Source of the DNA: Thelephora terrestris
Lineage: Eukaryota; Basidiomycota; Agaricomycetes; Thelephorales; Thelephoraceae
DNA: 64,000 nt
Direction: 5' to 3'
Assembly (NCBI GenBank): GCA_015956445.1
Contig: WIUZ02000015.1
Coordinates: 832,001 to 896,000, forward strand
Shown piece after piece: positions 57,358 through 62,452 of the stretch. The number at the start of each line of letters is the position of its first letter. Position 1 is the first letter of the stretch. Below the pieces are notes generated by a model. The model made no database searches, was not told the DNA's origin, and saw nothing but the letters and a program-made list of their open reading frames with translations. The position numbers were made by a program, and so were the translations under genes.

Positions 57358-57462
57358 TGTCACGAACGCGTGACATAATAGCCAAGATCGCACAAATAGT
57401 TCAAGACATTGGTCTCATTCGCAGTAGTAATAATACAAGGATGGGAAAAAGGAACTACAAAC

Positions 57463-58372
57463 TCAAACAAGAACAAACGGGTCGACATCGCACGAACACT
57501 GCTGAGGAAGAGGACAACGGTGAGCAAAGTGGTGAGGGTTATAAACACTCTCAGGGCAATAAGACCATTCTCGCGTCATCGGATCCTGCCAACATTCCCT
57601 ACACCCCAACACATCATGAGAAAGACTCTCATACATCTCTCGACGCACGTCCTGCAAGGCCCCGCTCACTAAGGAGAACCCATAGCGGTCTTGGAGACCC
57701 GCCACTTCCACCTTCAACTTCATCCTCACCTGCCGTGACTTGTCGGAGGGACGACAACGTTGACCAGAACGAGTCATCGGACTCTTGCGGGTCTTCTTCT
57801 TCTGAGACCTCTCCACCATCTGGCGAACTGGGGCAGGACTCCAGGGAGGGGATGGAGGGAGAGGAACACCCTGATCCTGGCGGTGGCGAAGGGATGACTG
57901 GGGACTTGCAAGGGGGGTCGGTGCAATAAGCTCCGTGGCATTGGTGTCCGAAATATCGGAAGAGAGATGCCTGGAAAGGTCCCCAATGTTCCAAGGCAAA
58001 GTGAGAGAAGTCATTGTTTAAGCTGTTCATGATAACGTACATGAGGTCCACACGCTTCTCCAACTTCGCGATCCTATCCTCCCTATCCTGCTCCATGACG
58101 TCTAACAAGCGAGCAGCCGCAGGGTGTTGAGCCTGCATCCGAGGCATGGGAAGCCTGGGATCTTCATACCCAGCCTGTTCCCAGAACTCAGCGGGAGCAT
58201 TGTGGGCGGTGAGGAAGTCGACGGCGACCCGGTTGTCGTGAGCGATGTTGGCGGGGGTGTCGTACAGATGTTGCTCCACGTTGAGAGGAGCATCCGTCTC
58301 GAAGGACGGGGTAAAGTCGAAGGGGGTGGCAGCGGCGTTGAGCACGGCGTTGTTGGCGACAAAAGAAGACAT
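57463..58372 (-). CDS. element left gene, outer copy (two overlapping frames)
   Basis: Frame 1 runs from MSSFVANNAVLNAAATPF at 58372 to a stop at 57629. It has a coiled-coil-like stretch (DREDRIAKLEKRVDLMYVI), then FSHFALEHWGPFQASLFRYFG, then a Pro/Ser/acidic tail. Frame 2, shifted +1, is open from before 58014 to 57463 and encodes a basic stretch (RSQKKKTRKSP) and a Cys/His-rich end (LGCRECW, YCPESVYNPHHFAHRCP). Both frames are preserved in the inner copy over the same 300-nt overlap. No conserved splice pair joins them, so the product may need +1 frameshifting, or only one frame may be used. No family is recognised. Confidence 0.55.
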
Positions 58373-58506
58373 AATATCAAGGGTTGGTTAGGAGAGTGGT
58401 GGTTGGTTTGGTGGGAGTGGAAAAGAGACGATGGAGGGAATGATCATTAATCCCCCTGTCTTAAATACATCCTGACTCAACAGAATTCCCAAAGGGGAAA
58501 ACAATA

Positions 58507-58511
58507 GTTAC
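58507..58511. repeat. target-site duplication GTTAC, left copy
   Basis: GTTAC directly precedes the TGTCACG end of the inner element. The matching copy is at 60889-60893, directly after its TGACA end. Confidence 0.85.
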
Positions 58512-58616
58512 TGTCACGAACGCGTGACATAGTAACCAAGATCTCACAAATAATTCAAGACATTGGTCGCATTCACAGTAATAATAATACAAAGGTAAAT
58601 AAAGGGAACTACAAAC

Positions 58617-59589
58617 TTAGACAAGTACAAACGGGTCAACATCGCATGGACAGTCCTGAGGAAGAGGACAACGATGAGCAAAGTGGTGAGGATTGTGTAC
58701 ACTCTCAGGACAATAAGACCAAGCCCGCGTCACCGGATCCTGCCAACATTCTCTACACCCCAACACATCATGATGCAAACTATCATGCATCTCCCGCTTC
58801 ACGTCCGACAAGGCTGCACTCACTAAGGCAAATCCATACCTGTCCTGGAGACCCGCCACTTCCACTTTCAACTTCATCCGAACCTGACGTGACTTGTCGG
58901 AGGGACGACAGCGTTGACCAGAACGAGTCATCGGATTCTTGCGGTTCTTCTTCTTCTGGGATCGCTCCACCATCTGACGAACTGGGGCAGGACTCCAGGG
59001 AGGGGATGGGGGAAGAGGAATTCCCTGATCCTGGCGGTGGCGAAGGGATGACTGGGGACTTGCAGGGGGGGTCGGTGCAATAAGCTCCGCGACATTGATG
59101 ACCGAAGTACCGGAAGAGAGATGCCTGGAAAGGTCCCCAATGTTCCAAAGCGAAGTGAGAGAAATCCTCGTTCAAACTGTTAACGACCACGTACATGGTA
59201 TCCATCCTCCTCTCCAGTCTAAGGATCCTATCCTCTCTTTCGCGCTCCATAGCATCCAACAGACGAGGAACTCCAGGACGATCCAAACGAGTCCGAATGG
59301 GATCATTGTACTCCGCATCCGACATGCGGCTCAGTAAACCTCTTGCTCCAGCATGGGGAGCATCGAAAAGATCAAGACGGGGGTCTTCATAACCGGCCTC
59401 CTCCCAGAACTGGGGAGGAGCGTTGTGAGCCGTGAGGAAGTTGATGGTCGCCTCGTTGTCCTGAGCAATGGCGGCAGGGGTGTCGTACAAGTGTTGTTCC
59501 ACGTCGAAGGGAACATTCGTCTCGAAGGACGGGGTGAAGGGGGTAGCGGCAGCGTTGAGCACGACGTTGTTGGCAACGAAGGAAGACAT
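58617..59589 (-). CDS. element left gene, inner copy (two overlapping frames)
   Basis: Homologue of 57463-58372. Frame 1 starts MSSFVANNVVLNAAATPF at 59589 and stops at 58783; frame 2 (+1) ends at 58617. Both ends sit at the same distance from the element terminus as in the outer copy. It is longer by an inserted segment (SRMSDAEYNDPIRTRLDRPG) before the coiled-coil-like part (EREDRILRLERRMDTMYVVV). The frame 2 C-terminus (LGCRECW, YCPESVHNPHHFAHRCP) is strongly conserved. Upstream, TATTTAAG near 59680 on the minus strand may be its TATA box. Confidence 0.55.
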
Positions 59590-59792
59590 AATAGTGCTGG
59601 AAATTTGGGAGAAGGTGGTATGGGTGTTTGGTGGGAGTGGAAAAGAGACGATGAGGGGAACAATCATTAATCCCCCTGACTTAAATACACCCTGACTCAA
59701 AGGGGAATCGAAAGGGGAAAACAATAACCTATTATTCATTAAAGTCCCAATTAGGACAAACGAACCCTCAACCCCAATCGAGATCCCATCAA

Positions 59793-59945
59793 TTCAGAGA
59801 AATCCCCATCGATCATGGGAAATCCCCACCACGCTTCTATTGCTGCCATGGATCCAGAGAAATCCCCATCGATCATGAGAAATCCCCATCACGCTTCTAT
59901 TGCTACCATGAAACGCGAGAAAATCCCTGAAGGCTTCCATTGACC
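59793..59945. repeat. short tandem repeats in the inner element centre
   Basis: About two units of roughly 62 bp, each with two GAAATCCCC words and a CATCGATCA word. The same array in the outer element (60950-61130) has about three units, so the number differs between copies. Confidence 0.75.
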
Positions 59946-60868: not shown

Positions 60869-60949
60869 GCAGGCCTACAACCCTGACAGTTACTTCCCAC
60901 TAAAGTCCTAATTAGGATAAACAAACCCTCAACCCCAATCGCGATACCA

Positions 60950-61130
60950 TCAAAACCTGAGAAATCCCCATCAATCAGGAGAAATCCCCGCCGCACTTCT
61001 ACTACTTCCGAAATCCAGAGAAATCCCCATCGATCAAGGGAAATCCCCGCCACACTTCTACTACTTCCGAAAACCCAGGGAAATCCCCGTCGATCAGGAG
61101 AAATCCCCCTAATACTTCCATCAGTTATTC
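60950..61130. repeat. short tandem repeats in the outer element centre
   Basis: About three units of roughly 62 bp containing GAAATCCCC twice per unit plus CACTTCTACTACTTCC. Homologous to 59793-59945. Confidence 0.75.
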
Positions 61131-61275
61131 CTCCTATTGTTTTACTATTAGTCATTTCCATCCATCGTCCTAAGTCCCCTTTCCCCGACTCATTCAACCT
61201 ACCCTAAAGTACGCACAGACCACGTTTACGCACGTTTGGTTCCTTGTAGAATTATGACTCCTGTAGAGGACTGGG

Positions 61276-61284
61276 TATATAAAG
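61276..61284 (+). promoter_or_regulatory. TATA box of the outer right gene
   Basis: TATATAAAG in the same setting as 60095-60102, 152 bp before the ATG at 61428; the 49-nt leader intron is at 61358-61406. Confidence 0.6.
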
Positions 61285-61427
61285 AAGAGCGTTCGCTCCT
61301 TTCTTTTCCCCATTCTCAATCTCTTCTGTACTCCTCTACCCATAACCTGAATAAAAAGTAAGCTGAGGAATTCTCCTCACGCCTTACCCCTTCTAACCCG
61401 TCTCAGCAGGAATTCTCCTGCCAGTGT

Positions 61428-62051
61428 ATGTTCAGTGCTCCTAACCCTTTCCCCTCTACAAGCCCAGTTCAGCGACCAGTCATCCCTGACGCTAGAAGGT
61501 CTATCTGGGAGTATAAGCTCATCAGAAGCCTTCAGGTAAACCGAACCGCCGGTTTACTCACCCATTTCCCTTACTACCGACCCTTTGCTGCCCTCGACGC
61601 GGGAGTCACTACTCCTCCCTTCCTATTAGGAGCCGATCATCAATTCCTTTGGAATTCTGATCTTACTGAGAGCGTCCTTGCGACAGTCTACTTCAGTATC
61701 AGTCCGGCCTTCTACTTCCCCTCTCCACGTGTTCACCTCACAACTAACATCCACACCCACTCCCCTGCTATTATCGTTCTTTGGTGGGAAATCCCAACTG
61801 AATTACCTTATTCTGTCATAGAATATCTCGTCAACTTCGAAAGGCTTAGCGACCAAGACTTTGAACCGTTCGTGCAGCAACTCAACCAGTTCTGCCAAGA
61901 CTACCACTCGCCCGTCCATCCCTATCAAACCGAGTCACCTCTCTCTCTTGATATCCCCCCTCCTCTAGACCCCACGCCTGGAACCCCCTTCAAGACCAGA
62001 CCCGACACTCCTCATCCATCTGCTAATCCTCTAGCGCCCCACAAACAGTAA
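61428..62051 (+). CDS. element right gene, outer copy, 207 residues, unknown function
   Basis: Same length and ending as the inner copy at 60245, with seven amino-acid changes, four of them in the Pro-rich tail. The stop lies 20 bp before the element end (TGACA at 62067-62071), so the gene nearly abuts the terminus. Confidence 0.75.
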   Translation: MFSAPNPFPSTSPVQRPVIPDARRSIWEYKLIRSLQVNRTAGLLTHFPYYRPFAALDAGVTTPPFLLGADHQFLWNSDLTESVLATVYFSISPAFYFPSPRVHLTTNIHTHSPAIIVLWWEIPTELPYSVIEYLVNFERLSDQDFEPFVQQLNQFCQDYHSPVHPYQTESPLSLDIPPPLDPTPGTPFKTRPDTPHPSANPLAPHKQ

Positions 62052-62452
62052 GCAGGCCCACAACCCTGACACCAATCTGGTTCCGAAGTACGCCCATCTC
62101 GTGATTAGTCTGTGATATTGAATGTTAGAATATTTTTCAAGTCCGTGGCATAAATACTTGCCGAGAGGATAACTGCATCATCCCTGTGCAGGCAGTATGG
62201 GAGGTTAGGGTAGACGGCATTGAACTCCTGCTGGTAGACAGGGACAGTAGGATTGGACCATGGCAACATGCCAGAGAAAGTGATCTTCATCATGTGTCGA
62301 ATGAATGTGTTTTGGAAGTTGGGATGTATGTTCAGCGGCAGATCCTTTAGTCCTGGGACCTGAGTTTTTCCGGCCTCATCCTTGCATCTCCTTGGGAACG
62401 AATAGACTACTGGATGTACCGGTGTCGTGCTTGTGGGTGGTGTAGTGTTATG

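Follow-up and report, generated by a model that had tools for sequence, protein, structure and literature searches.

Several described mobile elements resemble F1, our label for a repeat unit of about 2.3 kb that occurs as a nested pair in a 64,000-nucleotide stretch (the window; C7:832001-896000) of the genome of Thelephora terrestris, an agaricomycete of the Thelephorales (40.6 Mb, 60 contigs). Ginger1 and Ginger2/TDD combine TGTNR ends and inverted repeats some 40-270 bp long with a gene for a gypsy-like integrase (PMC2836005); PlavakaA, from mushroom-forming fungi, has TGT..ACA ends, 2-bp target duplications and an EnSpm-like transposase gene (PMC12730594); and IS481EU, from parabasalids, has TG..CA or TGT..ACA ends, duplications of about 4, 15 or 25 bp and a DDE transposase gene (PMC10045372). 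TRIM-type elements such as Helenus, whose fungal members have 5-bp duplications, are thought to be mobilised by other retroelements (PMC10886601).

F1 has something in common with these elements and differs from each. Its TGTCA end satisfies the TGTNR rule of Ginger1 and Ginger2, as an earlier note on this DNA had pointed out; that part of the comparison holds, whereas the long inverted repeats and the integrase gene were not seen, only the 5 bp TGTCA being inverted between the ends (TGTCACGAACGCGT versus TGTCAGGGTTGTAG) and no integrase being found in five frames searched against Pfam. PlavakaA has similar TGT..ACA ends and belongs to the same fungal group as the host of F1, but F1 duplicates 5 bp instead of 2 bp, and the EnSpm-like transposase gene is a feature of PlavakaA. 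IS481EU is alike in its ends and differs in duplication sizes, transposase gene and host. TRIMs such as Helenus differ from F1 in having two long terminal repeats (LTRs) around a primer-binding site and no protein genes (PMC10886601). Solo LTRs of Ty1/copia or Ty3/gypsy elements share with F1 the TG..CA ends, the 5-bp duplication, a sense TATA box with AATAAA and the solitary copies; F1, however, is 2.3 kb long and has three protein-coding frames that are conserved, and a full-length element was not seen. The insertion chemistry looks like that of known DDE systems, while each family has traits that F1 lacks. We read F1 as a stand-alone ambisense unit whose products P, A and B would be selected in cis and which would be inserted by a DDE-type enzyme most likely supplied in trans. 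We give this reading a probability of about 0.48.

Ends, target duplications and empty sites of F1

The nested pair, with its TGTCA/TGACA ends and the two perfect 5-bp duplications described in the earlier note, was recovered exactly (Table 1). Both copies start with TGTCACGAACGCGTGACATA and close with CAACCCTGACA, and their aligned pieces show 79-85% identity. The inner copy has a sister at C7:910953-913329 that differs at one position and carries another duplication, GCATT. Self-nesting, from which the note had argued for two separate insertions, is borne out and recurs: L023 holds a second self-nested F1 pair with duplications ATTGG and GGTGC, and the copy at L015 is likewise inserted within another F1 copy.

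Further copies with the same ends, which the note had proposed to look for, are abundant. Allowing up to 3 mismatches, the genome contains 296 matches to the 20 bases at the 5' end of F1 (control, 1) and 319 to the 25 bases at its 3' end (control, 0). Within a sample of 100 of the 296 and 100 of the 319 ends, 46 end pairs lie less than 6 kb apart, and 38 of them are spaced 2250-2377 bp. We inspected 40 copies on 37 fetched stretches, including the two in the window and excluding partial copies such as L035 and L039; they are the best 40 of 402 candidates scored genome-wide and hence biased to good matches. A perfect 5-bp duplication lies exactly at TGTCA/TGACA in 35 of the 40, in agreement with what the note had anticipated for aligned insertion sites. 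The remaining copies either miss one end (L014, L043) or have both ends but no duplication (L020, L038, L042); the chance of at least 35 duplications among the 38 copies with both ends is about 4e-102. A strong target consensus is not apparent by eye among the 35 sites. Two of the duplication-bearing copies, both in L024, are mirror copies that stem from an inverted duplication of a single insertion. There, at L024:2087-7235, the insertion and its flanks are duplicated in inverted orientation 536 bp apart, which may reflect either biology or the assembly.

For 33 insertions a putative empty site was reconstructed by fusing the two flanks around a single copy of the duplication; 20 of these sites match a contiguous stretch elsewhere in the fetched loci, the same locus included. 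Some matches reach 95-100% over 120 bp without gaps (100% for L025) and some are weaker; a few of the weak ones, e.g. that of L012, hit local repeats. Six empty sites lie within a second repeat, five of these in its 5' part before the first ATG. Exact ends together with 5-bp duplications and empty sites identify these insertions as products of transposition rather than of segmental duplication. Moreover, many F1 lineages appear to have been active recently, because duplications and genes are intact although the nearest relatives of most copies are only 90-95% identical.

Coding capacity and selection

The two divergent genes named in the earlier note are both present; the antisense one has, in addition, a conserved intron and two overlapping frames that the note did not mention. 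The sense gene, P, has an intact frame in 37 of 38 copies, with mean proportions of synonymous (pS) and nonsynonymous (pN) differences of 0.352 and 0.023 and a ratio of nonsynonymous to synonymous rates (dN/dS) of 0.049 over 703 pairs. In seven reciprocal nearest pairs, P has accumulated 28 nonsynonymous changes against about 352 expected without selection, and two of the pairs are identical in P. Genome-wide, 140 of the 150 matches to P that were scored among 413 candidates are free of stops.

An ATG opens the antisense gene in 38/38 copies. The putative intron of this gene measures 70 nt in all 38, so splicing would shift the frame; the donor is GTACGT in 36 and the acceptor TTCCAG or TTTCAG in every copy. 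Reading through the intron would give A (241-268 amino acids), splicing B (273-300 amino acids), each intact in 35/38 copies: L042 and the second copy of L036 lose both, L032 loses A and L022 loses B. Three T. terrestris gene models (P0035, P0036, P0045) use the 70-nt splice. A and B overlap over about 114 codons (342 bp) in two frames, a and b. Within the overlap pS falls to 0.086 in frame a and 0.115 in frame b, compared with 0.39-0.48 alongside, as expected if both frames matter. The intron read-through frame has a dN/dS of 0.071 and the B-only part of exon 2 one of 0.104; frame b is free of stops in 146 of the 150 matches scored among 375 candidates genome-wide. In the Drosophila P element, too, the transposon's gene gives rise to a second protein when an intron is retained, as we propose for F1; unlike F1, that element has a well-known transposase, and the intron that it retains is not known to open a long second frame.

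Judged by purifying selection and intact frames, the F1 genes are functional. Non-coding parts of F1 differ by about 0.12-0.19 at sites scored as codons and may be constrained too, because their divergence is below that of synonymous sites. Strong purifying selection, together with the one inverted duplication in L024, could also be expected of genes that serve the host and whose repeats arose by gene duplication or as artefacts of the assembly. We consider this very improbable in view of the exact ends, duplications and empty sites, and of some 300 copies that nest in themselves and in other repeats, unlike a host gene family.

As the note had stated, F1 encodes no recognisable mobilising enzyme: none of the five frames scanned has a Pfam match above threshold, and against PDB sequences the best match of P has an E value of 0.29 while frame b has none. 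Predicted models are poor, with a mean predicted local distance difference test score (pLDDT) of 51.6 for P and 46.0 for frame b, and a PDB fold search with the P model gave nothing below E 0.47. Homologues were found for P (9 of 128 candidates), A (41 of 2224) and frame b (19 of 3006), and the named ones come from T. terrestris. B contains a run of conserved basic residues and an end with the C-x2-C / C / H / H / C-rich pattern, both also present in distant relatives (30-40% identity); the most distant relatives of frame b, P0063-P0066, are in this range. One pattern stretch in viral_contigs was considered as a viral relative of P; none was confirmed.

Sister repeats with a common end

Two other gene-bearing repeats, F2 and F3, end like F1. 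F2 (TGTCAGGGCC..TTCCTGACA, 3290 bp) carries a multi-exon gene; its 5' end matches the genome 603 times (control, 1), and two complete copies with duplications were found, in L009 and L016. Its 3' part follows the layout of F1, with an intron of about 94 nt that has an open read-through frame and is followed by two overlapping open frames; selection there is weaker (pN/pS 0.33-0.62; seven rows, six loci). F3 (TGTGATGATT..GGCCTGACA) carries an antisense gene and is represented by one complete copy (L040) and three more starts. CCTGACA forms the 3' end of all three repeats, and F1 and F2 also have the TGTCA start in common. The common CCTGACA ends suggest one common enzyme; without such an enzyme, or a common origin of the ends, they would be a surprising coincidence. 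F1 is one of at least two, and probably three, gene-bearing repeat families.

In the window, two antisense matches of GCACRGACCATG, a promoter motif of F1 and F3, lie at 63597-63629 and probably belong to an F3-like fragment. Annotation is affected as well, several gene models of T. terrestris being parts of F1, some joined to a second repeat: in the database proteins P0019, P0035 and P0036 antisense exon 1 is fused to other sequence, which in P0035 is the F2 gene.

Solitary unit or LTR

The earlier note had taken solitary copies to speak for a stand-alone unit, and the 40 inspected copies are indeed solitary, with neither gag-pol between copies nor an integrase between the same ends. F1 copies might instead be solo LTRs, that is, 2.3-kb LTRs that carry accessory genes, A/B in antisense within U3 and P within U5, and whose full-length elements are rare or lost. 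The TG..CA ends and 5-bp duplications would fit, as would a TATA box followed by AATAAA at LTR-like spacing and a P stop codon adjoining the element end, and duplication-flanked solos are the expected leftover of LTR recombination.

A direct-repeat pair around gag-pol with one shared duplication was seen for 0 of the 38 copies with both ends, as judged from the ends listed, and no two copies have flanks in common in register from the boundary, the L024 duplication excepted; where other flanks match up to the boundary, F1 has inserted into the same repeats at differing positions. Right flanks are target duplications with nothing shared in register, although no search dedicated to primer-binding sites or polypurine tracts was made. 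When the positions of 121 copies were compared, neighbours separated by 2-16 kb shared a strand in 18 cases and lay on opposite strands in 24, without a common distance. Of the 144 integrase matches, 112 exceed the cut-off, and 14 of these have one of the 200 listed ends no more than 10 kb away, against about 11 predicted by simple arithmetic; their orientation is mixed and there is no common offset. These linkage tests used the sample of 100 ends of each kind, in which rare full-length elements could be missed. The best candidate for an LTR pair, L042 with C12:3270249-3272562, has differing outer flanks, and L009, between two same-strand C60 copies, contains other repeats, not gag-pol. One abundant integrase family is Ty1/copia, going by its reverse-transcriptase motifs. 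This copia family is the only one for which an LTR was seen, and its ends, TGTTGAA..TTCAACA, differ from those of F1. Because there is no shared internal domain, no excess of same-strand neighbours and integrase proximity close to chance, we regard solo LTRs as unlikely. A palindromic pair of a copia-type LTR (TGTTGAA..TTCAACA) lies in the window itself at 56083-56742, and also in L033 and L048.

A model for the movement of F1

In our preferred reading, that of a stand-alone unit moved in trans, two divergent promoters in the middle of F1 would drive P in the sense direction and, in the antisense direction, either A, with the 70-nt intron kept, or B, with the intron spliced. The whole unit would be inserted in one piece by DDE-type strand transfer on its TG..CA ends with a 5-bp stagger. 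The cutting enzyme might be a retroelement-type integrase or come from a partner element, and each copy would depend on its own P, A and B, which would bind the ends, regulate or take part in packaging. Keeping or removing the intron could determine which of two regulators is made, or whether the product is a binding or a regulatory form. Lineages with broken genes would then not spread, because the carrying copy needs P, A and B. The combination of young insertions, with intact duplications, and old lineages implies that selection on the three proteins may act via cis propagation.

A number of observations weigh against this model. Neither the enzyme nor a partner element was found, and supply in trans is a guess. 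The 703 pairwise comparisons are non-independent, and gene intactness is overestimated, because the analysed copies are the best-scoring 40 of 402 candidates. With its stop codon 20 nt from the element end, the P transcript has little room to end inside F1. The LTR-like traits, i.e. TG..CA ends, a TATA box in 38/38 and AATAAA in 33/38 copies, also count here, as does GCACRGACCATG upstream of the F1 TATA box, a motif also present in the LTR of the copia element.

F1 might, alternatively, be autonomous, if P, B or a P-B complex were a recombinase that has escaped recognition and that carries out cleavage and joining at TGTCA/TGACA. Constraint is strongest on P and B (dN/dS 0.049 and 0.104), which are intact in nearly all copies, cis-selection this strong is a hallmark of autonomous elements, and the basic stretch and Cys/His-rich end of B as well as the missing partner element point the same way. 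We nevertheless find autonomy doubtful: neither P nor B has a counterpart in Pfam or among PDB sequences, the poor models lend no help, and the genes of F2 and F3 look unrelated, which excludes P and B as a mover common to all these repeats. Quite unlikely, in our estimate, is the more far-reaching proposal that F1 represents a categorically new class of eukaryotic elements that move autonomously, an ambisense mini-genome of 2.3 kb with a P and B recombinase, a frame switch by intron retention and CCTGACA-ended sisters, one of them with the same two-frame splicing design.

Mobile DNA without an enzyme of its own normally loses its genes. F1 looks enzyme-less, yet in about 300 copies it maintains three strongly selected protein frames, of which two overlap and are linked by a putative alternative splice. 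Either P or B would be an undescribed recombinase, or F1 would stand for a class of satellites that carry genes and depend on the products of these to exploit another element. F1 may thus reveal an undescribed way in which genes spread in fungal genomes; its description was not recognised in the literature searched, which spanned neither Repbase nor most subscription papers.

Features of the window and neighbouring observations

Table 1. Positions of F1 features in the window and of complete F2 and F3 copies elsewhere (aa, amino acids).
Feature	Position	Strand	Remarks
Outer (older) F1 copy, split by inner copy	57358..62071	+	TGTCA/TGACA ends; duplication CCAAT
Inner F1 copy, 2377 bp	58512..60888	+	TGTCA/TGACA ends; duplication GTTAC
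CCAAT target duplication, outer copy	left 57353..57357, right 62072-62076		
GTTAC target duplication, inner copy	left 58507..58511, right 60889-60893		
Gene P, inner copy, 207 aa	60245..60868	+	Stop codon 20 nt before element end
Gene P, outer copy, 207 aa	61428..62051	+	
Probable 49-nt intron, 5' untranslated region of P	60175..60223 (outer copy 61358-61406)	+	GTAAGC donor 38/38, acceptor AG 38/38
TATA box of P, GGGTATATAAGG	60092..60103	+	38/38 copies
A, predicted unspliced product, inner copy, 268 aa	58783..59589	-	
A, outer copy, 247 aa	57629..58372	-	Exon 2 of outer B extends to 57463
Exon 1, common to A and B	59195..59589	-	Coiled-coil-like end (by eye); dN/dS 0.162
Putative 70-nt intron (spliced, B; read through, A)	59125..59194 (outer copy 57971-58040)	-	
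Exon 2 of B (B, 300 aa in all), Cys/His-rich end	58617..59124	-	58783-59124 two-frame
TATA-like box of antisense gene, TATTTAAG	59680..59687	-	Exact in 34/38 aligned copies, near-exact in other 4
F2 copy, TGTCA/TGACA ends	L009:5994-9283 (C60)		5-bp duplication CTGAT
F3 copy, TGTGA/TGACA ends	L040:4547-9223		Duplication CATAC; F1 copy nested inside

Elsewhere in the window, a pair of TGTCAGG ends at 4865-10229 spans host coding sequence and was taken as chance. The stretches 14309-22390 and 46581-54751 repeat each other in direct orientation, with about 73% identity over 8.2 kb, and carry a gene with stretches that by eye appear helicase-like and Cys-rich.

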